Shown one piece after another: positions 7,007 through 21,366 of a DNA stretch of 23,832 nt (position 1 is the stretch's first letter; every line of letters begins with the position of its first letter). Below the pieces are notes generated by a model. The model was not told the DNA's origin, ran no database searches, and saw only the letters and a program-made list of their open reading frames with translations. The translations under genes were made by a program, and so were the position numbers. The DNA is from a virus, in the IMG/VR virus record IMGVR_UViG_3300011414_000002, positions 1 to 23,832 of that record. One strand, written 5' to 3'.

Positions 7007-7622
7007 AGGCGAGCTTTTGCGGGAGCTGGACTACATCGCCAAGACCATTCGCAGCTCTTGGGAGTTCATCGACTACACGTTTGAGATCGTCGATGTCACG
7101 CGCGCGTTCACCCATCAATTCGTCCGGACGCGCACCGGCAGCTATGCGCAGCAGTCGCAGCGTAGTACCAACATGGAAGGCTTTGGCGTCTATGTACCAA
7201 AGACCGTCCGCGACAACCGGGCGGCTATGTTCCATTGGGGAGAGGCCATCGCCGCTATCGAGCGCAACTACCTAACGCTGATCAGGCTGGGCATCCCGAC
7301 TGAAGACGCGCGCGGGCTGCTTCCGACGAACATCCTCACCAGCATCATCGCCAAGTTCAACCTCCGGACGGTCGCGGATATTTGCGCGAAGCGCGACAAC
7401 CTCCGGGCGCAAGGCGAGTACACAGAGGTGGTCCGGGCGATGCGGGAGTGCGTCTATGAGGTCCACCCTTGGGCCAAGAGCTTCATCGAGCCGGAGCGGA
7501 CGCAGACGCCAGCCATCAACACGCTGCTGAAGGATTGGCTTGGTAACGCCACGCCCGTCTCGAAGCCGATGATCAACGACGCGCTGAAGGAGTTAGACGC
7601 ACTCAAGGGAGTGTGGGGATGA
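6867..7622 (+). CDS. thyX: Flavin-dependent thymidylate synthase ThyX
   Basis: Converts dUMP to dTMP with FAD and methylene-tetrahydrofolate, supplying dTMP for phage DNA synthesis. At 251 aa it is of normal ThyX length. The signature appears as AFTHQFVRTRTGSYAQQSQR (residues 80-99), corresponding to RHRxxSxNxxSxR, with the His of RHR replaced by Thr and the final Tyr absent. WEFIDYTFEIVDVTRAF precedes it as in the family. A strong AGGAGGAGGAG ribosome-binding site precedes the ATG. It overlaps the methyltransferase tail upstream and the HAD gene downstream (ATGA). Family is sure; the RTR variant is worth noting. Confidence 0.88.
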   Translation: MKVRLINYTGKGTAEPQIEAAKLLVYTKNTRLTQGKETERLINEKSEGELLRELDYIAKTIRSSWEFIDYTFEIVDVTRAFTHQFVRTRTGSYAQQSQRSTNMEGFGVYVPKTVRDNRAAMFHWGEAIAAIERNYLTLIRLGIPTEDARGLLPTNILTSIIAKFNLRTVADICAKRDNLRAQGEYTEVVRAMRECVYEVHPWAKSFIEPERTQTPAINTLLKDWLGNATPVSKPMINDALKELDALKGVWG

Positions 7623-8047
7623 AAGCCGTTCTCTGCGACATCGACAACACGCTCTCGCTCGCGAGCTGGCGCAACCAGTACAAGGGCGATTGGGACACCT
7701 ATCACAAGCTCTCGACTGATGATGAGCCGGTCAGTGAAATCATCGAAGCCGTCAACGCGCTGGCCGCCGCAGGCATAGCCGTCATCATCATCACGGCTAG
7801 ACCGGAGCGTTGGCGCGGCATTACAATCGAGTGGCTATCGCATCACCGGGTGGCCGGAGACGGTCTGTTGATGCGCCCGGATGATGACTGGCGACCGTCG
7901 CCAATTGTTAAGATGGAGCTGGCTGTGAGCCACTTCGGTCCAGACCTAGCTGACCACGTCTCGCTCGTCATCGATGACCGGGATGATGTGTTGGAGGCGT
8001 TCCGCGCGTTAGGCATAACCTGTATTCAATCGTGGGTGGGCAAATGA
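7619..8047 (+). CDS. HAD-superfamily phosphatase, PNK 3'-phosphatase-like
   Basis: Protein of 142 aa with all four HAD motifs: DIDNT (D7 nucleophile, D9 acid/base), IIITARP (motif II), a Lys in IVKMEL (motif III) and VIDDRDD (motif IV). Size and motif spacing resemble the phosphatase domain of T4-type polynucleotide kinase and phage 5'-nucleotidases. If it removes 3' or cyclic phosphates, it could act on the cyclic-phosphate ends made by the downstream hammerhead RNAs; that link is speculation. It overlaps thyX and the next gene by ATGA. Confidence 0.82.
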   Translation: MKAVLCDIDNTLSLASWRNQYKGDWDTYHKLSTDDEPVSEIIEAVNALAAAGIAVIIITARPERWRGITIEWLSHHRVAGDGLLMRPDDDWRPSPIVKMELAVSHFGPDLADHVSLVIDDRDDVLEAFRALGITCIQSWVGK

Positions 8048-9864: not shown

Positions 9865-12710
9865 TCCGCACTGGCTACAGCTTCAATTCGGCAGTCGGCC
9901 ATCTCAAAGATGTGATGTCCCGGCTGGTCGAGATAGGTTGGACGGTCGCGCCAATAGCCGATACCAACAACACATTCGCTTTCGTGAAATGGACGAAGCT
10001 CGCGAAGAAAGCCGGACTGCGCCCGGTCTATGGGGTGGAGCTTCCGATCAGCGAGCACATCGGCAAGAAGCGTCAAGTGCTCGACTGGTGGACGTTCCTC
10101 GCCAAAGATAGCCTCCGGCCGCTCCACGATCTGATCGAGGAGGCGACTGACGAGATGGGCCTCACCTACCCTTCCGCGCTGGCCGCGAAAGGCGTCATCA
10201 AAATCTCCGGGCCAGCGGTTCGCGTCGACCAGCTCCGCCCGGTGGATGACTTCTACATGGGGCTGTCTCCCGCGCTCCCGCGCGCGCTTAGGAAAGTCTC
10301 CGGCTTTCCGAAGCTCGCTATGAACGCCAACCGCTACCCGCGCGAGACTGATCTGGAATTCTACCGGGTGCTGCTCGGCAAGTTTCGCTCCTCCTCTCAG
10401 ACCTATCCGCAACACATCCTCTCCGATCAAGAATGGCTCGCCATCATGAAGGATGAGGAGGCGCTGAGCAACCGCGACCGGGTGCTGGCGTCCTGTACTG
10501 CTCCGCTGAGGAAGGCCAAGCTGATCGTCCCGGAGAAGCCGCTGACGCTTCGAGAGATGTGTGAGGAGGGTGCTAAAAGGTTAGGTGTGGACCTTTCCAA
10601 CCCGGTCTATGCTCAGCGGCTAGACCGCGAGCTGGCGCTGATCGATGAGAAGCAATTTGAAGACTATTTTTATGTGATCGCTGACCTGATGGATTTCGCC
10701 CGCACCCGGATGATCGTTGGTCCCGCGCGCGGAAGCTCCTGCGGCTCTCTGGTCTGCTACCTGCTCGGCATCACAGCCATCGATCCCATTCCGTTTAACT
10801 TACTATTTGAAAGATTCATCGACACGACGCGGACTGACCTCCCGGATATTGACCTGGACTTTTCCGATACCAACCGCCATAAGATTTTCGAGTACATCGA
10901 ACAGAAATACGGCTATGGACGCTCCGCCCGGTTGGGGACTGTCGGTCGCTTCCTCCCGCGCTCCGTTCTCAGTCAGGCTGGTGTCGCGCTCCGCATCCCA
11001 AAGTGGAAGATCGAAAAGGTTCTTGACAACATCATCGTCCGGTCTTCCGGCGATAGCCGCGCGCTCCAGCAGCTTGAGGACACGCTCCGGGAGCGAGACG
11101 CTGGCCAAAGGCTACTGAAAGATCACCCTGAGATTTTGATAGCGGCGAAGATGGAAGGCCACCCGTCAGTCTCCTCCCAGCACGCAGCCGGTATCGTCCT
11201 AACCCAAGAGCCGGTGCGGGAGTTTGTCGCGGTCGACGCCAAGACCAAATGCGCGATGTGCGATAAGAAAGACGCTGAGGAACTCAACCTGTTGAAGATT
11301 GACGCGCTGGGGCTGACGCAGCTTTCGATTTTCGAGCGCACGCTGGAGCTGATCGGTCGACCGCCAACCTCAGCCGCCCGGTTCCTCGAACAGCTCCCGC
11401 TCGATGACGTGAAGGCGTTCAACGTTCTTAACGCAGGGCACTTCGCCGGCATCTTTCAGTTCATGGGCAGCGCGCTTAAGTCTCTCACCCGGCAGGTGAC
11501 GATAACCTCGATCAGCGACATCATCGCCATCACCGCGCTGGCGCGTCCCGGACCACTCGCCTCCGGCGGAGCGCAGGACTGGTGCAACCGGAAGAATGGC
11601 GCTGAGGTCACGCTGCCGCATCCGATCTTTGAACCGTATCTCCGGGACACGCTAGGCGTCGTGATGTACCAAGAGCAGGTGATGCGCATCGGGCGGGAGG
11701 TTGGCGACCTGTCGTGGGAAGACGTCACCGCGCTCCGGAAGGCGATGAGCCGGAGCCTTGGCAAAGAATTCTTCAACCAGTATGGCGACCGCTGGAAGGA
11801 TGCCGCAGAGAAGAAAGGCGTGCCGCGTTCCGTGCTTGATAAGGTCTGGGACGATCTTTGCGCCTATGGGTCGTGGAGCTTCAACGCCTCCCACGCCGTC
11901 GCCTATGGCTTCGTCTCATACTGGTGCTGCTGGCTGAAGGCTCACCACCCGGTCGAGTTTGCCGCCGCCACGCTCGATGCTGAGAGCGATCCGATGCGAC
12001 AGATCCAACTCCTTCGCGAGCTGAAGGCGGAAGGCATCGGCTATGTGGCAGTCGACCGTGAGCGAAGCGAGACGCGGTGGCTGCCTGCTGGCGATACGCT
12101 GATTGGACCGCTCACAAATATCAAAGGCATCGGACCACGCAAGGTGGTCGAAATAATGGAGCACCGGCGCGATGGAACGGAGCTGAAGCCTGCTCTCAAG
12201 AAACTACTCGACGCGGCGAAAACGCCAATTGATAGCATCTACCCGGTCGCTGATCGCTTCGCGCAACTCCGCCATACGCTGCCATTCGAGATAACCCGCG
12301 ACATCACTCCGGTGATCGACATCCAACCCGGCTTTGAAGGCATCGTCCAGACTGTCGCAGTCGCCATTCGTATCGTCCCGCGAGATGAGAATGAAGAAAT
12401 CCTAATCGCCAAACGCGGCGGTCGCCGCGCCCATGGACAGACGCGCTACCTCAACTTGTTCGTCCAAGACGACAGCGATGAAATCTATTGCAAGATTTCC
12501 ACGCGCGACTTTGAGCGGCTAGGTCTTCCTGTGATCGAAAAAGGGCGCAAAGGCAAATCGCTCTACATTCTCAACGGCTGGGTGCCGCGCGACTTCAGGA
12601 TGATTCAAATCCGACAGATAACCTACGTTGGAGATATGGATGATGATCGACGGCAATCTGGGAGCGATCTTCCAGAAGAAGCTGCCGCTGGTTCATTGGC
12701 AGCGAATTGA
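9861..12710 (+). CDS. dnaE: DNA polymerase III alpha-type polymerase (DnaE-like)
   Basis: Replicative C-family polymerase of 949 aa. The true start at 9861 is set by the ATGA overlap; the longer open frame upstream runs over the small membrane-protein gene. Motifs: GPARGSSCGSLVCYLLGI (about 288-304), PDIDLDF (328-334, catalytic D329 and D331), HAAGIVL, LLKIDALGL (third Asp near 481), ALARPGPLASGG, YQEQVMRI, SFNASHAVAYGFVSYW, and a C-terminal OB-like region. The N-terminal PHP domain keeps its outline (GYSFNS to LRPVYGVEL), but metal ligands seen in HSDYS and TDHGN are replaced (RTGYS, ADTNN). It is therefore probably inactive as a nuclease. Proofreading is likely given by the DnaQ-like gene upstream. 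Confidence 0.93.
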   Translation: MIRTGYSFNSAVGHLKDVMSRLVEIGWTVAPIADTNNTFAFVKWTKLAKKAGLRPVYGVELPISEHIGKKRQVLDWWTFLAKDSLRPLHDLIEEATDEMGLTYPSALAAKGVIKISGPAVRVDQLRPVDDFYMGLSPALPRALRKVSGFPKLAMNANRYPRETDLEFYRVLLGKFRSSSQTYPQHILSDQEWLAIMKDEEALSNRDRVLASCTAPLRKAKLIVPEKPLTLREMCEEGAKRLGVDLSNPVYAQRLDRELALIDEKQFEDYFYVIADLMDFARTRMIVGPARGSSCGSLVCYLLGITAIDPIPFNLLFERFIDTTRTDLPDIDLDFSDTNRHKIFEYIEQKYGYGRSARLGTVGRFLPRSVLSQAGVALRIPKWKIEKVLDNIIVRSSGDSRALQQLEDTLRERDAGQRLLKDHPEILIAAKMEGHPSVSSQHAAGIVLTQEPVREFVAVDAKTKCAMCDKKDAEELNLLKIDALGLTQLSIFERTLELIGRPPTSAARFLEQLPLDDVKAFNVLNAGHFAGIFQFMGSALKSLTRQVTITSISDIIAITALARPGPLASGGAQDWCNRKNGAEVTLPHPIFEPYLRDTLGVVMYQEQVMRIGREVGDLSWEDVTALRKAMSRSLGKEFFNQYGDRWKDAAEKKGVPRSVLDKVWDDLCAYGSWSFNASHAVAYGFVSYWCCWLKAHHPVEFAAATLDAESDPMRQIQLLRELKAEGIGYVAVDRERSETRWLPAGDTLIGPLTNIKGIGPRKVVEIMEHRRDGTELKPALKKLLDAAKTPIDSIYPVADRFAQLRHTLPFEITRDITPVIDIQPGFEGIVQTVAVAIRIVPRDENEEILIAKRGGRRAHGQTRYLNLFVQDDSDEIYCKISTRDFERLGLPVIEKGRKGKSLYILNGWVPRDFRMIQIRQITYVGDMDDDRRQSGSDLPEEAAAGSLAAN

Positions 12711-13029
12711 GACTGGTGGAACCGGACGCGGCATCCCGGATTTGAACGGATGCTATGCTGGCGTCGAAGTCTGGATTGAGAATAAGAAAGTCAGCGGCCA
12801 CAAAGTCCACACGATGGACCCACAACAGGTTGCTTGGTTAGAGCGGCGCGTGCGTTATGGCGGTCGCGCGTTTGTCGCTGCGCGCAAAGTTGAGACGAAT
12901 GAATTTTGGTTGTTGCCGGCTTCGTCCGCGCGTCTCCTCCTCGATAAGCAGCGCGTGATGGATGTTCCGTTCCTCTACTATGGCCATGACTGGCGGCAAA
13001 TCGCTTCGATCCTTTTTGGACCAGTTTAG
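12640..13029 (+). CDS. PD-(D/E)XK nuclease, VRR-NUC / resolvase-like
   Basis: Protein of 129 aa. Catalytic core GIPDLNG (D34) followed by VEVWIENKK (E47, K49), the D...ExK pattern of VRR-NUC and Holliday-junction-resolvase-like phage nucleases. QQVAWLERRVRYGGRAFVAAR follows, as in the family. The ATG at 12640 has GGAG upstream; it overlaps the polymerase end by 71 nt. Probably resolves branched replication or recombination DNA. Last gene before a promoter-type gap. Confidence 0.8.
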   Translation: MMIDGNLGAIFQKKLPLVHWQRIETGGTGRGIPDLNGCYAGVEVWIENKKVSGHKVHTMDPQQVAWLERRVRYGGRAFVAARKVETNEFWLLPASSARLLLDKQRVMDVPFLYYGHDWRQIASILFGPV

Positions 13030-13347
13030 CCTCCCGGCCCAGGCTTTCCCGGCAGTCCCGGAAGTGACCCACCGCTAAGTGGTTGATCCCGGCTATGAAC
13101 TTTTCCTCTTTTTTCGCAATTTTTTTGTTTTCAAAAAATCAGAAAAGGAGGATATTTAACTCAAGAAAAAGAAACGCCATACAGACTTCGCCCTCACAGT
13201 GGCTCCCCCGAAAAGGAGCGGTTACGGGAAGGGACGGAGAGTGCGCGGAGTAAAGGCAAAAAGTTAAGCGCCAGTTTCCTTCCGGTCTTACTCCTTCGCG
13301 AGCGAGAGGAAGAGGCGGTCAAAACAGAAAGCCCACGCGCACTCTAA
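13030..13347. other. Non-coding gap with AT-rich hairpin, likely promoter region of the ribozyme operon
   Basis: Follows the nuclease gene. Contains CCAC-CGCTAA-GTGG just after the stop. Then comes a markedly T-rich block with TTTTTTG (13121-13127) pairing with CAAAAAA (13132-13138), flanked by CTTTTC (13100-13105) and GAAAAG (13142-13147). Further on is a GCTCC/GGAGC hairpin near 13202-13220. An AGGAGGAT at about 13147 has no good start codon after it. A 52-codon frame at 13095-13253 lacks a ribosome-binding site and was not annotated. A promoter here would serve the accessory operon; no clean -35/-10 pair could be assigned. Confidence 0.5.
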
Positions 13348-13425
13348 GGCGAAACGAAAAGAGCGGCGGAAAATTCTCCGCCGCTTTTTTCGTCCGGCCG
13401 GGTGGCTCCCGGTCGCTGATGAGCC
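13348..13425 (+). ncRNA. Type II hammerhead ribozyme 1 (terminator-like stem III)
   Basis: Core: GGC (13348-13350), GAAAC (13351-13355), long stem III 13356-13370/13377-13391 with loop AAATTC, GTC (13392-13394), stem I 13395-13415 with loop TGGCT, CTGATGA (13416-13422), GCC (13423-13425). Predicted cleavage is after C13394. Stem III has 15 pairs instead of 5-6, and its GC-rich part ends in CTTTTTTC, so it also looks like an intrinsic terminator. It lies before the peptidase gene, whose ribosome-binding site AGGAGGA follows at once. Stem II is open and only 3 bp. Confidence 0.92.
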
Positions 13426-13446
13426 AGCCATTAGGAGGAAGATACG

Positions 13447-13926
13447 ATGCCAAAGATTCAGACGACAGGCTTCAGCGTAGACTTCATGAACCTTCAGCGT
13501 GAGTCGCAGTACCGCTTCAACGAGACGAACGATTGCACGGTGAAGGCTCTCGCGATAGCGTGTGAGCTTCCTTACTCCACCGCCCACGCGCTTCTGAAAG
13601 CGAAGGGACGGAAAGACCGCCACGGCTTCCACATGTACAAAGTTTATGACGTGGCGCGCGAGCTTGGGTTTGAAGAGAGGCGGATTTGGGATCACCAAGA
13701 GTTCATCTCAAAGTATCCCGGCATCCACAAGAACCTTCGGCACGTGACGACGCATCACCCGCGTCGTTTCCCGAAGGCGTTTGATCCTTCGAAGACCTAC
13801 ATGCTGCTGACGACCGGCGGACGTCACGTGCTAGTCGTTAAGGGCGGCAAGGTCCACGATTGGACGGTTAACACCTCGATGAGGATTAGCTCCATCGTCG
13901 AGATCGTAAGGCGAAACGCGGCATGA
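13447..13926 (+). CDS. Papain-like / C39-type cysteine peptidase candidate
   Basis: Protein of 159 aa. NDCTVKALAIA places C30 at the head of a helix, as in papain-like enzymes. GGRHVLVVKGGKVHDW supplies H127 and D138 on adjacent strands, so C-H-D forms a plausible triad. No signal peptide, so it should act in the cytoplasm. It might process phage or host proteins, or be a transglutaminase-like member. AGGAGGA precedes the ATG. Its last codons lie inside ribozyme 2: the stop TGA (13924-13926) is in the stem III loop, so RRNAA at the C-terminus is dictated by the ribozyme core. Confidence 0.7.
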   Translation: MPKIQTTGFSVDFMNLQRESQYRFNETNDCTVKALAIACELPYSTAHALLKAKGRKDRHGFHMYKVYDVARELGFEERRIWDHQEFISKYPGIHKNLRHVTTHHPRRFPKAFDPSKTYMLLTTGGRHVLVVKGGKVHDWTVNTSMRISSIVEIVRRNAA

Positions 13927-13967
13927 GCGCCGCGTCCGGCCGGGTGGCACCCGGTCGCTGATGAGCC
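13910..13967 (+). ncRNA. Type II hammerhead ribozyme 2 (stop codon in loop III)
   Basis: GGC 13910-13912, GAAAC 13913-13917, stem III GCGGC/GCCGC (13918-13922/13929-13933) with loop ATGAGC, GTC 13934-13936, stem I 13937-13957 (9 bp closed by T-A, loop GGC), CTGATGA 13958-13964, GCC 13965-13967. Cleavage expected after C13936. The upstream gene's stop codon lies in loop III, so a terminating ribosome would cover GAAAC and stem III. Confidence 0.94.
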
Positions 13968-13986
13968 AGCCAACAGGAGACGGAAA

Positions 13987-14217
13987 ATGAACGTAAGGCA
14001 ACTCAAAGCCGCGCTTGAGCGGTTCGATGACGATGATGAAGTTTTCTTCTCTTACAACTATGGCGACCGTTCGCACACGATGGTCGCCGCTCCGGTCGCG
14101 CACGTCGAGGAGGAGGTTGTTGTCCACTCCGCCTATCACAATATGATGATGGTTGTGGGTGATGACGAACGCTATGATGACGACGATACGGCTGACGCGG
14201 TCGTGGTGCTGTCATGA
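13987..14217 (+). CDS. Conserved small phage protein (76 aa)
   Basis: MNVRQLKAALERFDDDDEV resembles the start of a widespread small phage/bacterial family in which a short helix with an acidic loop is followed by strands. The core VFFSYNYGDRSHTMVAAPV and acidic end DDERYDDDDTADAVVVLS fit that pattern. Function unknown. AGGAGA lies before the ATG; ATGA overlap with the next gene. Confidence 0.7.
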   Translation: MNVRQLKAALERFDDDDEVFFSYNYGDRSHTMVAAPVAHVEEEVVVHSAYHNMMMVVGDDERYDDDDTADAVVVLS

Positions 14218-14399
14218 ACCGCTATTTTGAATCGCGCGAGGAGCGCGCCAAGATGCGGATCGAACGGTTGGAGGAGAAGCTGAAACGACTTCAGGATGAG
14301 ATGGTTCACGACTATGACGCCATCCGCTCTACCAAGACCGCCATCGTGCGTTGGAAGAAAATCATTCGAGATATAGAAGAGGCGAAACGCGGCATCTAG
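14214..14399 (+). CDS. Small coiled-coil protein (61 aa)
   Basis: Highly charged helix throughout (EERAKMRIERLEEKLKRLQDEM). Start by ATGA overlap. The C-terminus EEAKRGI is encoded by ribozyme 3 sequence, and the stop TAG (14397-14399) spans the loop/stem III junction. Function unknown; likely oligomeric. Confidence 0.7.
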   Translation: MNRYFESREERAKMRIERLEEKLKRLQDEMVHDYDAIRSTKTAIVRWKKIIRDIEEAKRGI

Positions 14400-14437
14400 C
14401 CGCGTCCGGCCGGGTGGCTCCCGGTCGCTGATGAGCC
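14381..14437 (+). ncRNA. Type II hammerhead ribozyme 3 (stop codon in stem-loop III)
   Basis: GGC 14381-14383, GAAAC 14384-14388, stem III GCGGC/GCCGC (14389-14393/14399-14403) with loop ATCTA, GTC 14404-14406, stem I 14407-14427 with loop TGGCT, CTGATGA 14428-14434, GCC 14435-14437. Cleavage expected after C14406. Compared with copy 2, the loop differs but both stems are intact. The stop codon of the coiled-coil gene is inside the fold. Confidence 0.94.
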
Positions 14438-14455
14438 AGCCACAGGAGAAGGAAA

Positions 14456-14536
14456 ATGATCAGACTAGCATTCGAGGTTATCGCTTCGCTTCCAATCCCA
14501 CTCTTCATCTTCGCGCTTTGGCTTCTCACCAACTGA
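14456..14536 (+). CDS. Membrane micropeptide (26 aa)
   Basis: ATG 14456 follows AGGAGAAGG at ideal spacing right after ribozyme 3. The product is almost one membrane helix (ASLPIPLFIFALWLL) and stops at 14534-14536, 11 nt before the next start. Its strong ribosome-binding site and fit between neighbours argue that it is translated. Function unknown. Confidence 0.6.
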   Translation: MIRLAFEVIASLPIPLFIFALWLLTN

Positions 14537-14547
14537 AGGAGGGTAAC

Positions 14548-14751
14548 ATGCCGATCACAGTCAACACGTTCGACTATGAGTTCAGCCACGGTCGCTCTCC
14601 TCGCGGGCGCGGCCACTGGGCATTCTTCTTCGACCGCCGCGCGCGGATCGAAGATGCGTATTGGGTCGAAGGCTACTACACAGAGGCCAAGCGATTGGCC
14701 AGGCTGGAGGCTCAGCGTCGTGGCGTTTGTGAAGTCTTTGTAGGGAGCTGA
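14548..14751 (+). CDS. Hypothetical small protein (67 aa)
   Basis: GGAGGG precedes the ATG at 14548; an upstream in-frame ATG inside the ribozyme is rejected. The composition suggests a compact alpha/beta protein: PRGRGHWAFFFDRRARIEDA, then YYTEAKRLARLEAQRRG and CEVFVGS. It resembles small phage proteins of unknown function. Not recognised further. Confidence 0.65.
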   Translation: MPITVNTFDYEFSHGRSPRGRGHWAFFFDRRARIEDAYWVEGYYTEAKRLARLEAQRRGVCEVFVGS

Positions 14752-14753
14752 AG

Positions 14754-14954
14754 ATGTCGGACACAACCATGAAGGTCTACAACGCGCTCAAGGACAACGG
14801 CTATACGGTCGCGTTCCGCCGCGCTCGCTTCGTCAAGATGAACTCAATCGGGCAGGAGATGCACGAAATTGAGTACACCAACGACCTCGGTGAGCCTGAG
14901 AAGGGCATCGTGTACGTCTGGCAAGAGAACGGCGTTTGGAAAGGAGACTTCTGA
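14754..14954 (+). CDS. Hypothetical small protein (66 aa)
   Basis: Not recognised. Mixed alpha/beta composition (KVYNALKDNGYTVAFRRARF, GIVYVWQENGVWKGDF). A GAGCTGAAG precedes the ATG two nt after the previous stop. It ends TGATG, sharing one base with the next start. Confidence 0.6.
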   Translation: MSDTTMKVYNALKDNGYTVAFRRARFVKMNSIGQEMHEIEYTNDLGEPEKGIVYVWQENGVWKGDF

Positions 14955-15043
14955 TGGAGATGTACGATTGTTGCGAAAAGGTCGTGGCCTATATCGCAAT
15001 CACCGGAATGGTGGGTGTGATCTTCGTCTGGGTCTTTTCGTAA
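14954..15043 (+). CDS. Membrane micropeptide (29 aa)
   Basis: ATG 14954 overlaps the previous stop by one base and is preceded by AAGGAG. A short polar head with two Cys (MYDCCEKVV) and one membrane helix (AYIAITGMVGVIFVWVF). The stop TAA (15041-15043) sits one nt before ribozyme 4. It parallels the 26-residue peptide after ribozyme 3. Function unknown. Confidence 0.55.
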   Translation: MEMYDCCEKVVAYIAITGMVGVIFVWVFS

Positions 15044-15044
15044 A

Positions 15045-15103
15045 GGCGAAACGCGGCACGCTCGCCGCGTCCGGCCGGGTGGCACCCCGGTCGCTGAAGA
15101 GCC
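15045..15103 (+). ncRNA. Type II hammerhead ribozyme 4 (CTGAAGA core)
   Basis: GGC 15045-15047, GAAAC 15048-15052, stem III GCGGC/GCCGC with loop ACGCTC, GTC 15069-15071, stem I 15072-15093 with one extra C opposite the loop side, CTGAAGA 15094-15100, GCC 15101-15103. Position 7 of the core is A instead of T, the one core base known to tolerate any nucleotide. Cleavage expected after C15071. Confidence 0.92.
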
Positions 15104-15121
15104 AGCCAACAGGAGGAAGAT

Positions 15122-15628
15122 ATGACTGACAGTTTGCTCGCAATCCTCGATAAGCTCGAAGTGCTCCCGCGCGATAGCGATGCGCTCACGATTGATACCG
15201 GCTTCGCGAAGGCGGCTGACGCCTTGGCGTTCATGCTAGGCGGGAACGCGCGCGTAACGTTCCGCAGCAAGAAGACCGGCGACCGCTTCACCTACCGGAT
15301 CGCGGTATGTGACGGCAAGCCTGACCTCTTCTTTGTCGCGGTCTTAACCGGCCCAGACAACACTTCTTCGTTCCAGTATCTCGGAACGATCCGGCGCGGC
15401 TTCGCGGGCGACCGCTACGCCCATGGCGTCAAGTCGAGGATCGGCGCTGACGCTCCGTCCGCGCGCGGCTTCGCTTGGGTCTGGGCGCAGCTCCAAGGTG
15501 GCGGCATTCCTTCGGCCGTCGAGATATGGCACGAAGGGCGTTGCGGACGTTGCGCGCGTCCGCTGACGGTTCCGGAGAGCATCCGCACCGGCTTCGGTTC
15601 GGAGTGCGCCGGCAAGCTTGGCTTCTGA
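15122..15628 (+). CDS. DUF6011-type zinc-knuckle protein (168 aa)
   Basis: The C-terminus HEGRCGRCARPLTVPESI followed by TGFGSEC carries three Cys (141, 144, 162) in the pattern of the DUF6011 C-terminal module, common in phages and alphaproteobacterial genomes. The preceding body (FQYLGTI, KSRIGADAPSARGFAWVW) also fits long members of that group. Function unknown; a metal-binding nucleic-acid protein is likely. AGGAGGAAG from the ribozyme 4 tail precedes the ATG. Confidence 0.78.
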   Translation: MTDSLLAILDKLEVLPRDSDALTIDTGFAKAADALAFMLGGNARVTFRSKKTGDRFTYRIAVCDGKPDLFFVAVLTGPDNTSSFQYLGTIRRGFAGDRYAHGVKSRIGADAPSARGFAWVWAQLQGGGIPSAVEIWHEGRCGRCARPLTVPESIRTGFGSECAGKLGF

Positions 15629-15632
15629 CGGG

Positions 15633-15740
15633 TGGTCTCTCATCCTGTCGGTCAGCGTGGGGGTCGATAGCTCCCAGAAAGATAACCTGCGGTCATCCGT
15701 CAGATTGGGTTTTCTGCCGTCCAAGGTTATCAGCCCACGC
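15633..15740 (+). ncRNA. Structured intergenic RNA candidate, copy 2
   Basis: Between the DUF6011 gene and the next small gene. GCGTGGG (15655-15661) pairs with CCCACGC (15734-15740). GATAACCT (15681-15688) pairs with AGGTTATC (15724-15731), enclosing CGG/CCG and CAGA/TCTG pairs. CTGCGGTCA and AAGGTTATCAG match the structured RNA at 4675-4798, but here an extra stem-loop lies between them. TGGTCT follows the stop codon closely in both. It sits between hammerhead copies 4 and 5 but lacks their core. No known class assigned. Confidence 0.5.
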
Positions 15741-15792
15741 AAAGGAACGTTCCGGCGGAGCCGGAGTTGAGATAGAGGAAAGGAGTACCATC

Positions 15793-16011
15793 ATGGATCC
15801 ATTCGACCGCGACGTGACTGTGACGCTTTCGACCTCTCAATGGTTAACCGTCCAATGTGCGCTGTCTGACGCGAGAATGTGGAACACCACTCACGGCTTT
15901 CCTACCCTCGCTGACGACATCATGAAGCTGAAGACGGCTCTTGCTGAGCAGACCGATCAGGCGCTCAACGCAGCGTTCCACGCTCAGCACCGGCCAACTC
16001 AAATCCAGTAA
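15793..16011 (+). CDS. Hypothetical protein (72 aa)
   Basis: Not recognised. Helical: VTLSTSQWLTVQCALSDARM, ADDIMKLKTALAEQTDQALN. AAAGGAG lies before the ATG at 15793; the long open frame upstream is incidental. The stop ends two nt before ribozyme 5. Confidence 0.68.
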   Translation: MDPFDRDVTVTLSTSQWLTVQCALSDARMWNTTHGFPTLADDIMKLKTALAEQTDQALNAAFHAQHRPTQIQ

Positions 16012-16012
16012 A

Positions 16013-16070
16013 GGCGAAACGGCGGAGCAATCCGCCGTCCGGCCGGGTGGCTCCCGGTCGCTGAAGAGCC
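16013..16070 (+). ncRNA. Type II hammerhead ribozyme 5 (CTGAAGA core)
   Basis: GGC 16013-16015, GAAAC 16016-16020, stem III GGCGG/CCGCC with loop AGCAAT, GTC 16037-16039, stem I 16040-16060 with loop TGGCT, CTGAAGA 16061-16067, GCC 16068-16070. Cleavage expected after C16039. Stem III changed from GCGGC/GCCGC of copies 2-4 to GGCGG/CCGCC with pairing kept, which is compensatory evidence for the fold. Confidence 0.94.
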
Positions 16071-16092
16071 AGCCAAAATATAGGAGTGGGGC

Positions 16093-16275
16093 ATGGAAGC
16101 AAAAGACTTGCTTCTGGGAGAGCTTATCCACGTCAAGGCGGATAAGCAACGCGTGGGCTTCATCGAGCGGATATTTGATGATGGCCTGTTAATCGTCCGT
16201 TGGTGCGATAGCGGTTGGGTTGGTACCATCGGAGCGGAGTTAGTTGAACCCCACATGGAGCACGAATGGCCATGA
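16093..16275 (+). CDS. Hypothetical small beta-rich protein (60 aa)
   Basis: Short strands (LLGELIHVKADKQRVGFIERI, LLIVRWCDSGWVGTIGAELV) suggest an SH3-like barrel. AGGAG lies before the ATG, 22 nt after ribozyme 5. ATGA overlap with the next gene. Function unknown. Confidence 0.65.
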   Translation: MEAKDLLLGELIHVKADKQRVGFIERIFDDGLLIVRWCDSGWVGTIGAELVEPHMEHEWP

Positions 16276-16850
16276 GCCCAAACTACCGCGCCAAGCGTGC
16301 TTGGCGTGAGGATGATATTCCTGACTTCCTCAAAGTTGAGAACCGGAATAAACCTATCAAGAAGAAACGGCCGCGCGCGAGCGCGACCGTAACGCCCGCG
16401 AAGGCGGAGCTGCCGCCGCTCCCGGCAGCACTCCGTTGGGCGGACGATACTGGAGGCGAAGGCGGCTTCCAGATCGACGAAGGCGTTGTGCCGCGACGTT
16501 GGGCAGATTATCCGGACACGATCCGGATGATTTGGGAACGTCTCACAACAGTAGCGGAGCGGCGGGAGGTTCACAAAGAGGCTTTCGTCACCATGATAAA
16601 AGAGAAGCGCGCTGCGGCTCCGAAGAAGCCAACCTTCGGAGGCGACTTGTTCATCATCGAGGTTCTGCGCAACCGTAAGCTCGACACCAAAGCCGGCAAA
16701 CGATTTGCGGCGATGGTCGAGTATATGAAGGCCAATCCAAAAGCGTCAGTCGCGGACGTCATCGCCAATACGGGATGGAAATTCGCGGACTACAAATGGG
16801 CGCTGGAGAATAAGTACATCAAAGTCAATACCACCACGTTGGGTGCCTAG
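16272..16850 (+). CDS. Hypothetical basic protein with C-terminal helical domain (192 aa)
   Basis: Start by ATGA overlap at 16272; an ATG two codons earlier is the alternative. Basic low-complexity N-terminus (KPIKKKRPRASATVTPAK), then a helical region. The C-terminus KASVADVIANTGWKFADYKW could be a helix-turn-helix. Its last codons overlap the 5' strand of the tRNA-like fold. Function unknown; DNA binding is inference. Confidence 0.7.
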   Translation: MSPNYRAKRAWREDDIPDFLKVENRNKPIKKKRPRASATVTPAKAELPPLPAALRWADDTGGEGGFQIDEGVVPRRWADYPDTIRMIWERLTTVAERREVHKEAFVTMIKEKRAAAPKKPTFGGDLFIIEVLRNRKLDTKAGKRFAAMVEYMKANPKASVADVIANTGWKFADYKWALENKYIKVNTTTLGA

Positions 16851-16924
16851 CTGGCAGCTATCCGCACCCCGCGCTGGCTGCATAAGGATGCGGAAGTGTC
16901 TGGGTGCAAATCCTGGACCCCAAC
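16838..16924 (+). ncRNA. tRNA-like fold with oversized anticodon loop
   Basis: Cloverleaf-like pairs: GTTGGG (16838-16843) with CCCAAC (16919-16924); TAGC/GCTA (16848-16851/16857-16860) with a TGGCA loop; CCGCA/TGCGG (16862-16866/16889-16893) with a 22 nt loop; and a T-arm-like hairpin TCTGGG-TGCAAAT-CCTGGA (16899-16917). The T loop resembles TTCAAAT. The anticodon loop is far too long for a working tRNA and no CCA end is encoded; the 22 nt loop can fold its own CTGCAT-AAGG-ATGCGG hairpin. It may be a degenerate tRNA, a tRNA mimic or an unrelated structured spacer. Confidence 0.3.
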
Positions 16925-16932
16925 ACTCAAAA

Positions 16933-16993
16933 GGCGAAACGGCGGGAGCAATCCCGCCGTCCGGCCGGGACGGCTCCCGGTCGCTGATGAGCC
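16933..16993 (+). ncRNA. Type II hammerhead ribozyme 6
   Basis: GGC 16933-16935, GAAAC 16936-16940, stem III GGCGGG/CCCGCC (one pair longer than copy 5) with loop AGCAAT, GTC 16959-16961, stem I 16962-16983 ending in an A-T pair where other copies have T-A or T-T, loop CGGC, CTGATGA 16984-16990, GCC 16991-16993. Cleavage expected after C16961. The extra stem III pair and the A-T swap are paired changes. Confidence 0.94.
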
Positions 16994-17010
16994 AGCCATA
17001 GGAGAAGGAA

Positions 17011-17391
17011 ATGTCAGAGCTTACCATCACCAACGATGACGAGCGGCGCGATGCGGTTATGCGGGCTGCGAAGGCTTACGATAAGTTGTACGAAGAAATC
17101 CACAACAAGGATGCTGAGATAGCGCGTCTCAGCATCGACCTCGAATCAGTACGCGGCCAGATTGTTCAGCTGGAGCTTTGTATCGCGCAAGAGCGGAACC
17201 GGACGGAGATGCTTCAGAACGAACGCGATGATGCGATCCTGGAGAAGTCAACGCTTCACGTCATGTTCCATAACCTCAAGGCGCAACTCGACGCCTTCGT
17301 GCTTCCGCTGCCGGAGCTTCCCGCCGCCACGCGGAAGAAGACCAACGGGAAGAAAGAGGAGGCGACCAATGACGACACGAAACCTAACTGA
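17011..17391 (+). CDS. Coiled-coil protein (126 aa)
   Basis: Long heptad region (IHNKDAEIARLSIDLESVRGQ to NLKAQLDAF), then a proline-rich hinge and a basic tail KKTNGKKEE. AGGAGAAGG from the ribozyme 6 tail precedes the ATG. The last 23 nt overlap the next gene. Function unknown; probably a multimeric structural or adaptor protein. Confidence 0.72.
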   Translation: MSELTITNDDERRDAVMRAAKAYDKLYEEIHNKDAEIARLSIDLESVRGQIVQLELCIAQERNRTEMLQNERDDAILEKSTLHVMFHNLKAQLDAFVLPLPELPAATRKKTNGKKEEATNDDTKPN

Positions 17392-17584
17392 GCTGGAAGA
17401 CCGAATGCTTGAGTCCATCGTCGACAAGTGCGGCATCGACAACGTTCTGCTGGCGCTCTCAGTTATGTGCGGCGATAAGTCAGTCCACGTCGCAGTCGCT
17501 TGGCAAGACCCCCACCTTGCGAAGCGGTGGTGTACCGTCGCGGATGATCTATCGGCTATCGTCCCGAAGGCGGCAAACTTATGA
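17369..17584 (+). CDS. Hypothetical protein (71 aa)
   Basis: ATG 17369 has AGAGGAGGCG upstream inside the previous gene. Helical product, LTELEDRMLESIVDKCGIDNVLLALSVM (read in two overlapping helices), then VAVAWQDPHLAKRW. The stop lies three nt before ribozyme 7. Looks like a small phage protein; not recognised. Confidence 0.65.
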   Translation: MTTRNLTELEDRMLESIVDKCGIDNVLLALSVMCGDKSVHVAVAWQDPHLAKRWCTVADDLSAIVPKAANL

Positions 17585-17587
17585 AGA

Positions 17588-17645
17588 GGCGAAACGGCGG
17601 AGCGATCCGCCGTCCGGCCGGGTGGCACCCGGTCGCTGATGAGCC
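17588..17645 (+). ncRNA. Type II hammerhead ribozyme 7
   Basis: GGC 17588-17590, GAAAC 17591-17595, stem III GGCGG/CCGCC (17596-17600/17607-17611) with loop AGCGAT, GTC 17612-17614, stem I 17615-17635 (9 bp, loop GGC), CTGATGA 17636-17642, GCC 17643-17645. Cleavage expected after C17614. Starts three nt after a stop codon. Confidence 0.95.
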
Positions 17646-17665
17646 AGCCATGAAAGGGATATACC

Positions 17666-18028
17666 ATGAAGCGTCTTATCATCATACTCGACGACAAAGC
17701 TGAAATCGACTTCAGCAAAACTCTCGGTGCCACCGTCTCAGGCGCGAAAGACTTCAAGATTGAGACGATGACCAACGGCCATTCGCAGCCGCCGATCAAG
17801 CGTCACCGTCCGGGCGGAGGGAAGACCGCGCTGACGGTCGTGATGGGTCACTTCGCTCCGTCCGCGATCTTCGACAACGCGACGGCCGTCAAGTGGCTCA
17901 AGGAGGAAGGCTATGCTGCGAACACCATCAACAGCGCAATCTCGGAGCTGGTGAAGGCCGGCAAGCTCAAGCGGCTTGGTAACAGCAAGTGCCAGTTCAT
18001 CGCGCCGTTGTCGAAGGGACTGTCATAA
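17666..18028 (+). CDS. Hypothetical protein with winged-helix-like C-terminus (120 aa)
   Basis: N-terminal strand MKRLIIILDDKAEIDF, a linker rich in basic residues, then FDNATAVKWLKEEGYAANTINSAISELVKAGKLKRLGNSKCQF, quoted here only as overall extent: a helix-turn-helix with a following wing fits well. Could be a regulator or DNA-binding adaptor. AAAGGGA precedes the ATG. The stop TAA abuts ribozyme 8. Confidence 0.68.
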   Translation: MKRLIIILDDKAEIDFSKTLGATVSGAKDFKIETMTNGHSQPPIKRHRPGGGKTALTVVMGHFAPSAIFDNATAVKWLKEEGYAANTINSAISELVKAGKLKRLGNSKCQFIAPLSKGLS

Positions 18029-18086
18029 GGCGAAACGGCGGAGCGATCCGCCGTCCGGTCGTTTGGCTATCGACCGCTGATGAGCC
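18029..18086 (+). ncRNA. Type II hammerhead ribozyme 8 (rewritten stem I)
   Basis: GGC 18029-18031, GAAAC 18032-18036, stem III GGCGG/CCGCC with loop AGCGAT, GTC 18053-18055, stem I CGGTCG/CGACCG (18056-18061/18071-18076) with loop TTTGGCTAT, CTGATGA 18077-18083, GCC 18084-18086. Stem I differs on both strands from the other seven copies yet pairs perfectly, while the core and the GGCT of loop I are unchanged. Cleavage expected after C18055. Confidence 0.95.
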
Positions 18087-18107
18087 AGCCATAGACAGGA
18101 GACTAAA

Positions 18108-19175
18108 ATGAAGCAGGGTCGCACACTCCAACAGCTGCTTGAGGAAATCGTCCGCCAGCAGGAGACCAAGCGAGACTTCATCGCAGATACCCGCAATCTT
18201 GAATTCGATGAGCTGCGGTTGAACATGGCCGACAAATCGTTCCCGGTGAACGAAATCGCCCATGAGCAAATCGCGGGCCACGTCAAAATCCCGCGACCGT
18301 ATTATGACCGGATGCGGCAAGAGGAGCCGGAGCTGTTCGCAACGAACGTCAACACTTGGTTCCGGAAATATCCGGCTGTGCGAATGATCCGGACGCTCGA
18401 TGATGGTGCGCGTTCGTTCCTCTCGAATTCCTACCGCTCGCTGGACAACAGCGATCTGTTGGAAGCTGCGTTGCCGCCGCTCCTCGACAGAGGCGTGGAG
18501 GTTATGAGCTGCGACGTCACCGACCGGAAGCTGTACTTGAAGGTCGTTGATCAGCGGATCAAGCGCGACCTCCCGGTGGGTTGGTCGATGAACAATCGCG
18601 GCCACCAACACTTCGATACGGTGTGCCCCGCGCTTGTGCTCTCCAACTCGGAGGTAGGTTGCGGAGCGTTGAGCGTCCAGACGTCAGTATGGACCGGCGG
18701 CTGTACCAACCTCATGGTGATCCAGGAGCGGTCGCACCGGAAGGCGCATCTTGGTTCGAAGCTCGATCTGGGCGATGACGTTTACAAGATGCTCTCCGAC
18801 ACGACGAAGAAGCTGACGGACGCGGCGCTGTGGGCGCAGATCAAAGATGTCGTCGGGCTGGCGTTTGACCGCGCGCAATTCGACGTCACCTGCGATAAGC
18901 TCGAAGCGGCGGGCAAAGATCTGATCGAAGGTGATCCGGTTAAGACCGTCGAAGTGGCGCAGCGTCACTTCGGCTTCAACGATACGGAGCGCGGTAGCAT
19001 CCTCCGCCATCTCATCTCCGGCGGTGATCTGTCGCGTTACGGTCTGCTCAACGCTGTGACGCGGACGGCGGAAGACCTCGACAACTATGACCGCGCTTCG
19101 GAGTTTGAAGCTCTGGGCGGGAAGGTGCTGGAGCTGCCGCGCGCGGATTGGCGCCGGATGGCCGAAGCTGCGTAA
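18108..19175 (+). CDS. DUF932 phage/plasmid-like protein
   Basis: Protein of 355 aa of the DUF932 group (phage and plasmid-like, often near replication genes). Typical features: an N-terminal region with IPRPYYDRM, RSFLSNSYRSLDNSDLLEAA in the centre, then DTVCPALVLSNSEVGCGALSV and TGGCTNLMV. Normal length. The molecular role of the family is not settled. AGGAGA lies before the ATG, after ribozyme 8. It is the first gene of the last mRNA made by ribozyme cleavage. Confidence 0.88.
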   Translation: MKQGRTLQQLLEEIVRQQETKRDFIADTRNLEFDELRLNMADKSFPVNEIAHEQIAGHVKIPRPYYDRMRQEEPELFATNVNTWFRKYPAVRMIRTLDDGARSFLSNSYRSLDNSDLLEAALPPLLDRGVEVMSCDVTDRKLYLKVVDQRIKRDLPVGWSMNNRGHQHFDTVCPALVLSNSEVGCGALSVQTSVWTGGCTNLMVIQERSHRKAHLGSKLDLGDDVYKMLSDTTKKLTDAALWAQIKDVVGLAFDRAQFDVTCDKLEAAGKDLIEGDPVKTVEVAQRHFGFNDTERGSILRHLISGGDLSRYGLLNAVTRTAEDLDNYDRASEFEALGGKVLELPRADWRRMAEAA

Positions 19176-19182
19176 CGAAAGA

Positions 19183-19255
19183 CCGGCGGCCGGGAGCAAT
19201 CCCGGTCGCCTCCTTCGAGCATAGACGATAGCGGTGGCGGCTATCGCGTATGCTC
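19183..19255 (+). other. Two strong hairpins after the DUF932 gene
   Basis: Hairpin A: GGCGGCCGGG (19185-19194) with CCCGGTCGCC (19201-19210), loop AGCAAT, 10 bp. Hairpin B: GAGCATA/TATGCTC (19217-19223/19249-19255) and CGATAGC/GCTATCG (19226-19232/19240-19246). The AGCAAT loop equals loop III of ribozymes 5 and 6, but GTC and CTGATGA are missing, so it is not a hammerhead. No U-tract follows either hairpin. It may be a relic, a processing site or a stabiliser. Confidence 0.5.
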
Positions 19256-19289
19256 GCAGTGAGCATGCGTCCGTGAATGGGGAAATACC

Positions 19290-19778
19290 ATGGAGAACCT
19301 TAGTGCCAAAGAATTAGTTCGTGCGTACAATGAGCTTGCTGAACAGTTAGGTCTTAAACCAGTCAAGAGGTTTACAGATCGCGCGGTTGGCATTAAGCGG
19401 ATCACAGCTTTGAGGCAACAGCAAAGCGTGTCCCAAAAAGAGGAGGTGCTTGACAACCAGGCTATCATCGTTCCAACAACAACAGAAGAAGAGGATAGTG
19501 AAATGAGTACCACGAAGAAGAAGATCATCGATCAGTTCCAGTCGCGAGATAAGACGCTGCGACAAAAAGCAGTCCATTGTCTAGTCGGATCACTCAACCG
19601 TCCTGTGCTGAGGAAGGAGCTGAGCAGGACGCTCTACGGCCGAACCGCCGGATATGAAGGGAAACTTCAGATGGTGCTGAAGGGTGTCCAAGTCGACATC
19701 GAGAAGCGGAAGGTGCCTGTCAAGTTCGTTTCGGAACGGACGGAAGAAGGTCTTGCGTATTCCCTGAAGACGAAATGA
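19290..19778 (+). CDS. Hypothetical two-part protein (162 aa)
   Basis: Residues 1-45 (AKELVRAYNELAEQLGLKPV, then RFTDRAVGIKRI) resemble the short N-terminal helical segment seen in DUF3489-like and other phage proteins. An acidic linker TTTEEEDSEM follows, then a basic alpha/beta domain (LNRPVLRKELSRTLYG, YEGKLQMVLKGVQVDI). A second in-frame ATG lies near residue 72 after AGTG only, so the long form is preferred; GGGGAAA precedes its ATG. Function unknown. Confidence 0.65.
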   Translation: MENLSAKELVRAYNELAEQLGLKPVKRFTDRAVGIKRITALRQQQSVSQKEEVLDNQAIIVPTTTEEEDSEMSTTKKKIIDQFQSRDKTLRQKAVHCLVGSLNRPVLRKELSRTLYGRTAGYEGKLQMVLKGVQVDIEKRKVPVKFVSERTEEGLAYSLKTK

Positions 19779-19855
19779 TGGAGGTTCTGATCCCGCTCTT
19801 TTACTTCATCTGGGTCTTGGCCCTGTGTTGGTGGTTCTTGAGCCGGATCGACTAG
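19775..19855 (+). CDS. Membrane micropeptide (26 aa)
   Basis: ATGA overlap with the previous stop. MMEVLIPLFYFIWVLALCWW then FLSRID: one membrane helix with a short charged end. Similar in design to the peptides at 14456 and 14954. Ends just before a hairpin. Translation is plausible by coupling; function unknown. Confidence 0.5.
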   Translation: MMEVLIPLFYFIWVLALCWWFLSRID

Positions 19856-19863
19856 ACAACTTG

Positions 19864-19887
19864 GCCGGGAGCGCGAATGCTCCCGGC
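19864..19887 (+). terminator. GCCGGGAGC/GCTCCCGGC hairpin before the SNF2 gene
   Basis: A perfect 9 bp stem with loop GCGAAT followed by TCCTTTCC, which is pyrimidine-rich but not a real U-tract. It is followed by GGAGCCAGCCC at the start of the next gene, sharing GAGCCAGCC with the tail of all eight hammerheads. It may be a weak terminator or the remains of a ninth element. Confidence 0.35.
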
Positions 19888-19914
19888 TCCTTTCCTAACA
19901 AATGGAGCCAGCCC

Positions 19915-21366
19915 ATGTACGTTCCTATCAAAGTACCATACGCCCACCAAGAGGAGGCGCTGCGACGCCTTCGCGGTCGCCGCCACTTCGGTCTGCTGAT
20001 GGCTATGCGGACTGGGAAGACCAAGACGGTGCTTGACGACTTTGGCCGCCTAGAAGACGAGAGCAAGGTGGAAAGCCTCCTCGTCATCGCTCCGGCCGGT
20101 GTCTACCACACTTGGGAAAAGGCCATCGAGGATCACGTCAGCGTCGACCTCCGGGAGCGCATGCGCGTTATGTCCTGGGTGTCCGGGCGAACCTCTGAGA
20201 GCCAGCTGAAACGTTTCCTCAGCTACGATGGCCCGCGCGTCTTCCTCGTCAACATCGAAGCGTTGTCAGTTGTCAAAGACGCGAAGGCGGCTTGCGTCGC
20301 CTTCCTCTCTCAGCGGCCGACAATGCTGGTCATCGACGAAAGCACCGCGATGAAGAACCACCGCGCCAAGCGGACCAAGTTCATCATGGAGGAGCTGAAG
20401 CCGCTCGCGGCATATCGTCGCATCCTCTCCGGACTACCCACACCCAAGTCTCCGCTCGATCTGTACACTCAGTTCACATTCTTGGATGAGGGTATCTTCA
20501 ACTGCCGGAACTATTACGCCTTCCGCGCGCGGTACGCGAAGATGGAACGCCGCTTCATTGGCGGTCGCTACATCGACCTGGTTGTTGGGTATCGCGATGT
20601 TGATGAGCTGGCGCGGCTGATAGCTCCTCACAGCTATCGCGTCACGCTGGAAGACTGCTATGACCTCCCGCCGAAAATCTACCAGCGCCGGGAAGTGCCG
20701 CTGAGCAAGCAACAGAAGAAGGTCTATGATGACGTCAAGGAATACGCGACCGCTCTACTCGCGAGCGGCGATCACGTTTCCACAAAGCTGGTGATCGACC
20801 AAATCCTGAAGCTCCACCAGATCGCCTGCGGTCACGTCACCGATGAGAATGGGGTCATCCACATGATCCCTCACCGGCGGATTGACGCGCTCATCGACTT
20901 GTTAAGCGAGCACGAAGGCAAGACGATCATCTGGTGCTCCTACGATGTGGACATCCGGGCGGTCGCAAAGGCTATCGAAGAGATGGAGGCTACCCCAGAG
21001 CAGCCGGATAAGCGTGTGCCGGTCGCGCGGTTCTGGGGCGGCAACGTCTCGACTAGGGAGGAGGAAGAAAGCGCATTCGTCAACGATCCTAACGTGCGCT
21101 ATATGGTGGCTACCGCGAGCGCGGGCGGACGCGGGCGGACGTGGACCTGTGCTGATATGGTCGTCTACTATTCGAACACCTATGACCTCGAACACCGGGC
21201 GCAGTCGGAGGAGCGAGCCCAAGGCGTTGATAAGGTACGCAGCGTGCTATACGTCGATATGGTGGCGCCGGGAACGGTCGATGAGAAAATCCTGGCGGCG
21301 CTGAAGGCGAAGATCAACATGGCCTCCGCGATAACCGGAGACGATTGGAAGGAGTGGCTGGAATGA
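19915..21366 (+). CDS. SNF2-family DNA helicase/translocase
   Basis: Protein of 483 aa with two RecA-like lobes. Lobe 1: HQEEALRRL (Q-motif region), Walker A AMRTGKT (30-36), LLVIAPAGV (Ia), LVIDESTAMKN (Walker B, DEST at 141-144), LSGLPTPKSP (III). Lobe 2: KTIIWCSYDVDI (IV), YMVATASAGGRGRTW (V), AQSEERAQG (VI). Uses ATP to move along duplex DNA; phage members are thought to help replication, recombination or counter-defence. GGAG precedes the ATG. ATGA overlap with the next gene. Confidence 0.9.
   Translation: MYVPIKVPYAHQEEALRRLRGRRHFGLLMAMRTGKTKTVLDDFGRLEDESKVESLLVIAPAGVYHTWEKAIEDHVSVDLRERMRVMSWVSGRTSESQLKRFLSYDGPRVFLVNIEALSVVKDAKAACVAFLSQRPTMLVIDESTAMKNHRAKRTKFIMEELKPLAAYRRILSGLPTPKSPLDLYTQFTFLDEGIFNCRNYYAFRARYAKMERRFIGGRYIDLVVGYRDVDELARLIAPHSYRVTLEDCYDLPPKIYQRREVPLSKQQKKVYDDVKEYATALLASGDHVSTKLVIDQILKLHQIACGHVTDENGVIHMIPHRRIDALIDLLSEHEGKTIIWCSYDVDIRAVAKAIEEMEATPEQPDKRVPVARFWGGNVSTREEEESAFVNDPNVRYMVATASAGGRGRTWTCADMVVYYSNTYDLEHRAQSEERAQGVDKVRSVLYVDMVAPGTVDEKILAALKAKINMASAITGDDWKEWLE

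Follow-up and report, generated by a model that had tools for sequence, protein, structure and literature searches.

Why would a phage carry the same self-cleaving RNA motif eight times along a single run of genes? The question is raised by the IMG/VR virus record IMGVR_UViG_3300011414_000002, whose entire 23,832 bases were analysed here (the window) and which is probably a fragment. A first-pass annotation had described in it eight type II hammerhead ribozymes, all in one orientation. The covariance search proposed there as a check, performed with cmscan against all Rfam families, returned eight matches to Hammerhead_II (RF02276), all on the plus strand, with no further copies and no other hammerhead in the whole record. 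Seven of them (42.7–53.6 bits) exceed the RF02276 gathering score of 37 bits; copy 1 reaches 36.7 bits and thus falls 0.3 short, probably as a result of its exceptionally long stem III. A structural descriptor made of stems I, II and III and the core recovers the same eight copies and is silent on 1.5 Mb of shuffled sequence (0 matches), which excludes chance as their origin. The word CTGANGAGCCAGCCA has exactly eight exact occurrences, with zero mismatch.

Every copy has the element order GGC-GAAAC-hairpin III-GTC-hairpin I-CTGANGA-GCC-AGCC, and the catalytic core (GAAA, GTC and either CTGATGA or CTGAAGA) is complete in all eight. The two forms of the last element differ at core position 7, the variable position of the hammerhead core. 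The 3' ends of the GTC triplets coincide exactly with the eight cut sites that had been named. Copy 1 (13347–13433, plus strand like all the others; E 3.2e-4) is predicted to be cut after 13394, and the descriptor gives its stem III 15 inner pairs. Copy 2 (13909–13975, 48.5 bits) would be cut after 13936 and copy 3 (14380–14445, 53.6 bits) after 14406. Copies 4 (15044–15111, 43.2 bits, predicted cut after 15071) and 5 (16012–16078, 49.2 bits, after 16039) are those with A at core position 7. The predicted cuts of the remaining copies follow 16961 for copy 6 (16932–17001, 45.1 bits), 17614 for copy 7 (17587–17653, 48.6 bits) and 18055 for copy 8 (18028–18094, 42.7 bits). Stem I of copy 8 carries compensatory changes, with C-G and G-C replaced by U-A and G-U by G-C.

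Stems I and III are closed by loops and stem II is open, and the pairing of stems I and III is backed by covariation within the window. Among the seven regular copies, two types of stem III alternate, GCGGC:GCCGC and GGCGG:CCGCC. Two-sided changes in stems I and III occupy 12 cells, where shuffles give 4.6, and in the true register 96.9% of cells are paired, compared with 22–52% when the partners are slid. Stem II is invariant across the window copies and shows complementary triplet variation at other loci. The UGGC of loop I is able to pair with GCCA in the 3' tail, a pseudoknot known for type II hammerheads (PMC3088659), and all regular copies fit it, bar one end pair in copy 6. In related loci, which supply 285 distinct loop/tail types, loop I–tail complementarity scores 8.22, compared with 6.93 ± 0.17 (maximum 7.33) when tails are permuted, a control that leaves the relatedness among loci in place. 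This test is independent of the models, as neither Rfam nor the descriptor assumed loop I–tail pairing. The paired segments differ widely between loci, for example UGGGCA with UGCCCA and GUGACA with UGUCAC. Judged from the sequence, the eight ribozymes are intact and under constraint at the RNA level, and Rfam, covariation and pseudoknot together identify them as type II hammerheads as firmly as sequence data can.

The position of the copies relative to the genes is equally regular. In all eight cases the next start codon lies 17–22 nucleotides (nt) beyond stem II, with a Shine–Dalgarno sequence in the gap. On the upstream side, five copies start 0–3 nt past a stop codon, two hold the stop within the stem III loop (TGA 13924–13926 in copy 2 and TAG 14397–14399 in copy 3) and one, copy 6, follows the stop at 82 nt, across a non-coding spacer; seven of the eight therefore abut or contain the upstream stop codon. 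The earlier description of the copies as intergenic is thus not strictly right for those at 13909 and 14380. The genes taken as real extend from about 3.2 to 22.8 kb and presumably all lie on the plus strand. Within the array, a scan found no terminator-like site on the plus strand and promoter-like matches only near chance level, which makes it plausible that the array is transcribed as a single RNA. One reservation concerns stem III of copy 1 (13355–13392, 15–17 bp, GC-rich with an A-tract and a T-run), which looks like a bidirectional intrinsic terminator. The terminator scan lists it on the minus strand only, supposedly because the T-run was counted as paired on the plus strand; if it does terminate, only read-through RNA would reach the cut site of copy 1.

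We consider it likely that the eight copies are functional type II hammerheads, arranged in tandem in one early or accessory operon, which cut a polycistronic RNA co-transcriptionally into messenger RNAs (mRNAs) of one to four genes with uniform leaders. Hammerhead cleavage leaves a 5'-OH and a 2',3'-cyclic phosphate. During transcription each copy would fold stem III, then stem I, then stem II together with the loop I–tail pseudoknot, and would cut itself after GUC. The upstream product would end in the stem III hairpin with its cyclic phosphate, and the downstream product would begin with a 5'-OH on stem I, shortly followed by the Shine–Dalgarno sequence. The outcome would be a set of mRNAs, each with the same hairpin-first leader irrespective of the sequence upstream, and the benefit could be a uniform protected leader and small accessory cassettes that are stable or expressed independently of one another. 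The first-pass annotation had read the ribozymes as punctuation of the operon: their placement from stop codon through ribozyme to Shine–Dalgarno sequence and their single orientation strongly support that reading, and we infer cutting in the cell, its constitutive character, the protection of the ends and the benefit to the cassettes. Cleavage in vitro has been observed for tandem arrays of three bacteria, and for one of these also in Escherichia coli (PMC3088659).

Several observations weigh against division of the transcript by these ribozymes. When folding is computed without the pseudoknot, the hammerhead fold lies 1.8–3.2 kcal/mol above another fold, a deficit that the pseudoknot may reverse. 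In the tests of 2011, 4 of 18 consensus hammerheads were inactive in vitro (PMC3088659). The closest IMG/VR relatives by DNA polymerase (L299–L304, 52–62% identity) proved free of type II hammerheads over the DNA examined, so the array is dispensable to the replication module. Lastly, the coding sequence upstream runs into copies 2 and 3, where translating ribosomes could delay folding. The same overlap may be read as regulation, with the cutting of each copy controlled by ribosomes that terminate translation upstream, or by a ligand or protein. Where the stop codon falls within the ribozyme or immediately in front of it, a ribosome ending translation there would sit over stem II or III, and at another locus, L305, stop codons likewise overlap stem II. 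The copies have, however, no aptamer-like extension, their short stems are near the consensus of fast hammerheads, and tight packing alone could explain the overlaps; we regard such switches as very unlikely.

If the transcript is divided at all eight sites, seven internal pieces of 441–968 nt would result, all from the plus strand. The first (13395–13936, 542 nt) would carry the open reading frame (ORF) 13447–13926, which belongs to phrog_3754, of unknown function; the second (13937–14406, 470 nt) would carry ORFs 13987–14217 and 14214–14399. The third (14407–15071, 665 nt) would hold ORFs 14456–14536 (26 amino acids), 14548–14751, 14754–14954 and 14954–15043 (29 amino acids), and the earlier figure of one to four genes a piece holds if its 26- and 29-residue ORFs are counted. 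These two look like single membrane-spanning peptides, the former directly behind copy 3. The fourth piece (15072–16039, 968 nt) would include ORFs 15122–15628 (DUF6011, phrog_20259) and 15793–16011; the fifth (16040–16961, 922 nt) ORFs 16093–16275 and 16266–16850; the sixth (16962–17614, 653 nt) ORFs 17011–17391 and 17369–17584; and the seventh (17615–18055, 441 nt) ORF 17666–18028. The predicted 3' piece (beginning as 18056–19778) would open with ORF 18108–19175 (phrog_1362, unknown function), followed by later genes including an SNF2-type helicase at 19825–21366. Ahead of the array, 13099–13347 is an 82-codon open frame that ends at copy 1 and has an internal GGAGG; as it lacks an ATG, GTG or TTG start, the existence of a gene before copy 1 is uncertain. 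Two spacers inside the array, 15629–15792 and 16851–16931, are non-coding and have stable predicted folds that are not significant. As candidates for further structured RNAs they were rejected (z –1.4 and –1.7 against shuffles, no Rfam family).

Arrays of the same kind occur in phages that can be grown. A blastn search with one window copy matched 59 phage records, every one of a Streptomyces phage. The whole records of seven R4-like Streptomyces phages contain 9–14 copies of RF02276 each (nine in R4, fourteen in Jevington), all on the minus strand at about 40–51 kb, which is the early-gene strand. These ribozymes are unannotated in the record stretches examined, and no earlier report of hammerheads in Streptomyces phages was found in the open-licence literature. 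On inspection, with GTT and GTA triplets accepted, the core is intact in 71 of the 72 copies of the seven phages; the exception has CTGA changed to CCGA. In these annotated genomes, annotated coding sequence covers 17% of the length of the 72 ribozymes, against 84% with random placement (minimum 72% in 1000 trials), and 56 of the 72 lie no more than 30 nt from an annotated start, where 8.2 would be expected (maximum 18).

About one-third of the R4-like copies have promoter-like or repeated motifs close upstream, and behind such motifs the same ribozyme would trim the leader. This might be taken as the general role, the ribozymes acting purely as insulators that trim the 5' leaders of RNAs made from a separate promoter for each cassette, no long transcript being divided. 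The motifs GTGATACTGT and TGTGCAAGTGTGACA before R4-like copies speak for it. In the window, by contrast, seven of the eight copies touch the upstream stop codon or include it and have no such motif before them; a separate promoter for each copy was considered and found unsupported, promoter-like matches there being near chance. We judge it quite unlikely that leader trimming accounts for the arrays. At the loci L266–L272, which are of R4-like phages, TGTGCAAGTGTGACA and GTGATACTGT are repeated on the sense strand, some of them at a fixed distance of about 14–15, 20 or 38–41 nt before ribozymes, and each locus has 9–16 sense matches to GTGNNANTG compared with 1–3 antisense matches; the motifs are like promoters or repressor sites in character. 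The arrays of L267, L268, L271 and L272 open with two back-to-back hammerheads 1–3 nt apart, from which an RNA of about 68 nt would be released.

The layout that suggests division of the transcript is also found more widely in IMG/VR. The sample was picked by an exact pattern from among the matches listed, and gives no prevalence. In 30 contigs among the matches listed, a search of the whole records found up to 10 copies (10 in G022, nine in G006 and eight in G014). By simple ORF rules, applied with no curated genes, 135 (83%) of 163 other IMG/VR copies precede a Shine–Dalgarno sequence and an ORF, compared with 19% at random and with 17 that pass on the opposite strand; the median gap to the upstream stop codon is 3 nt. 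All 53 loci with at least two copies, some of them from related phages, have them in a single orientation.

What is the history of the array in the window? A megablast search with the whole window found no match among phage records, and a search with the protein of ORF 15122 found no close relatives. The DNA polymerase relatives mentioned above were found with an alignment as query, the polymerase alone being insufficient. One of them, L304, has the order polymerase, homologue of gene 12628–13029, SNF2-type helicase; about 1 kb separates the last two, compared with 6.8 kb and eight ribozymes in the window. The array thus occupies a variable accessory segment, and on gene order this segment is an accessory island. 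Two hammerheads of a more distant relative (L087/G026) lie between its polymerase and a gene of the 18108 type. Three type II hammerheads are present at L305:2072–3120 (minus strand), two of them flanking a homologue of gene 13447; their stem II is GTC/GAC, and this array is an independent one. The window copies are unusually alike, with a mean stem I identity of 0.86 compared with 0.62–0.70 within other arrays, which fits recent amplification or gene conversion; the copies within one R4-like phage have diverged. The occurrence of a similar stem I in R4-like phages, in spite of phage genes that are not close, suggests horizontal spread, possibly with some convergence.

These data bear on a role at the level of DNA, in which near-identical direct repeats would serve as recombination joints or be a spreading repeat, ribozyme activity being incidental. 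The likeness of the window copies and the position of the array in a segment missing from L304 speak for such a role. So does the exchange of genes on both sides: ribozyme similarity between phages is 0.73 where only the upstream gene is conserved and 0.72 where only the downstream gene is, figures on which the idea of a ribozyme tightly linked to its downstream gene alone was also rejected. The compensatory changes in the stems, the covarying pseudoknot, the intact cores (71 of 72 in the Streptomyces phages) and the fit between stop codon and Shine–Dalgarno sequence would all be left unexplained, and we find this role unlikely.

The protein encoded at 7613–8047 has a PNKP-type HAD phosphatase domain (Pfam PF25109, E 3e-22). 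PNKP-type enzymes can remove 2',3'-cyclic phosphates, the ends that hammerheads produce. Such a domain could act on the ends if paired cutting and ligation yielded circular or spliced phage RNAs, and adjacent hammerheads on one strand are the circle-making arrangement of retrozymes and viroids. The domain is, however, missing from the R4-like phages with the largest arrays, and circular or spliced products were sought in tandem arrays and none found (PMC3088659), so that this outcome is extremely improbable. RNA end-healing as a general partner of the arrays was likewise rejected: the domain is in the window and in its ribozyme-bearing relative G026, and in no R4-like phage.

How new is the arrangement? 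It had been suggested that so many copies might be unprecedented, a view that does not survive: clusters of hammerheads were published in 2011 (PMC3088659), and eight copies are no record next to the 9–14 of R4-like phages or the 10 of contig G022. Both the clustering and the idea of transcript processing were already known (PMC3088659), and the window is a large new example. What is added here is a quantified placement rule, pseudoknot covariation in arrays, and arrays of 9–14 copies in cultivable Streptomyces phages. Since 2011 it has been an open question what hammerheads do for bacteria and phages. Large arrays in which all copies face one way and keep to a strict layout speak for mRNA processing, and their presence in cultivable phages such as R4 and Jevington makes the role addressable in an ordinary laboratory experiment.

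Of the known systems, the closest are the prophage clusters of Perreault et al. 2011 (PMC3088659), in which several copies in the same orientation stand on either side of genes, or of short blocks of them, in phage DNA, as in the window, and for which processing of long transcripts was proposed. The constructs tested there were of about 2 kb; the window has eight copies in 4.7 kb and the R4-like phages 9–14, and the rule stop–ribozyme–Shine–Dalgarno sequence was quantified in the present analysis, unlike in that work. With the RF02276 type II family the window copies share the core, the closed stems I and III, the open stem II and the loop I–tail pseudoknot, copy 1 alone departing from it by its long terminator-like stem III and its score just under the threshold. 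The R4-like phages (Arquatrovirinae: R4, Sentinel, Spernnie, VieEnRose and relatives) resemble the window in having same-strand copies, most of them directly before a gene start; the CGGCCGGG-type stem I found in seven of the window copies recurs in R4, and one window copy is 86.6% identical to R4 over 67 nt. They differ in their diverged copies, some of them behind promoter-like motifs, and in phage genes that are not close. Halovirus HF1/HF2 has a hammerhead, HHphage, close before a phage gene start, as in the window (13 nt before the start; the 5' end mapped there falls no more than 3 nt from the cut; PMC3088659); unlike the window copies, it is single, has a variant core and belongs to a virus of an archaeal host.

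RiboJ, a synthetic element built from the sTRSV hammerhead, by its self-cleavage makes all transcripts start with the same hairpin ahead of the ribosome-binding site, as predicted for the window products, and its insulation increases expression of the downstream gene, with higher transcript and protein levels (PMC6206723). It is engineered and sits directly behind a promoter, whereas the window copies lie inside an operon and abut stop codons; on this comparison they are not members of the RiboJ type, although their function may be alike. Tentatively, the arrays could be the phage's own insulators, giving every accessory cassette of the early operon independence at the mRNA level, with a standard 5' leader and a 3' end of its own, so that gain, loss or exchange of cassettes would leave expression undisturbed; in copies that include a stop codon, translation of the upstream gene would modulate the cut. 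If so, phages would long have been using a ribozyme insulator that synthetic biologists later reinvented as RiboJ.

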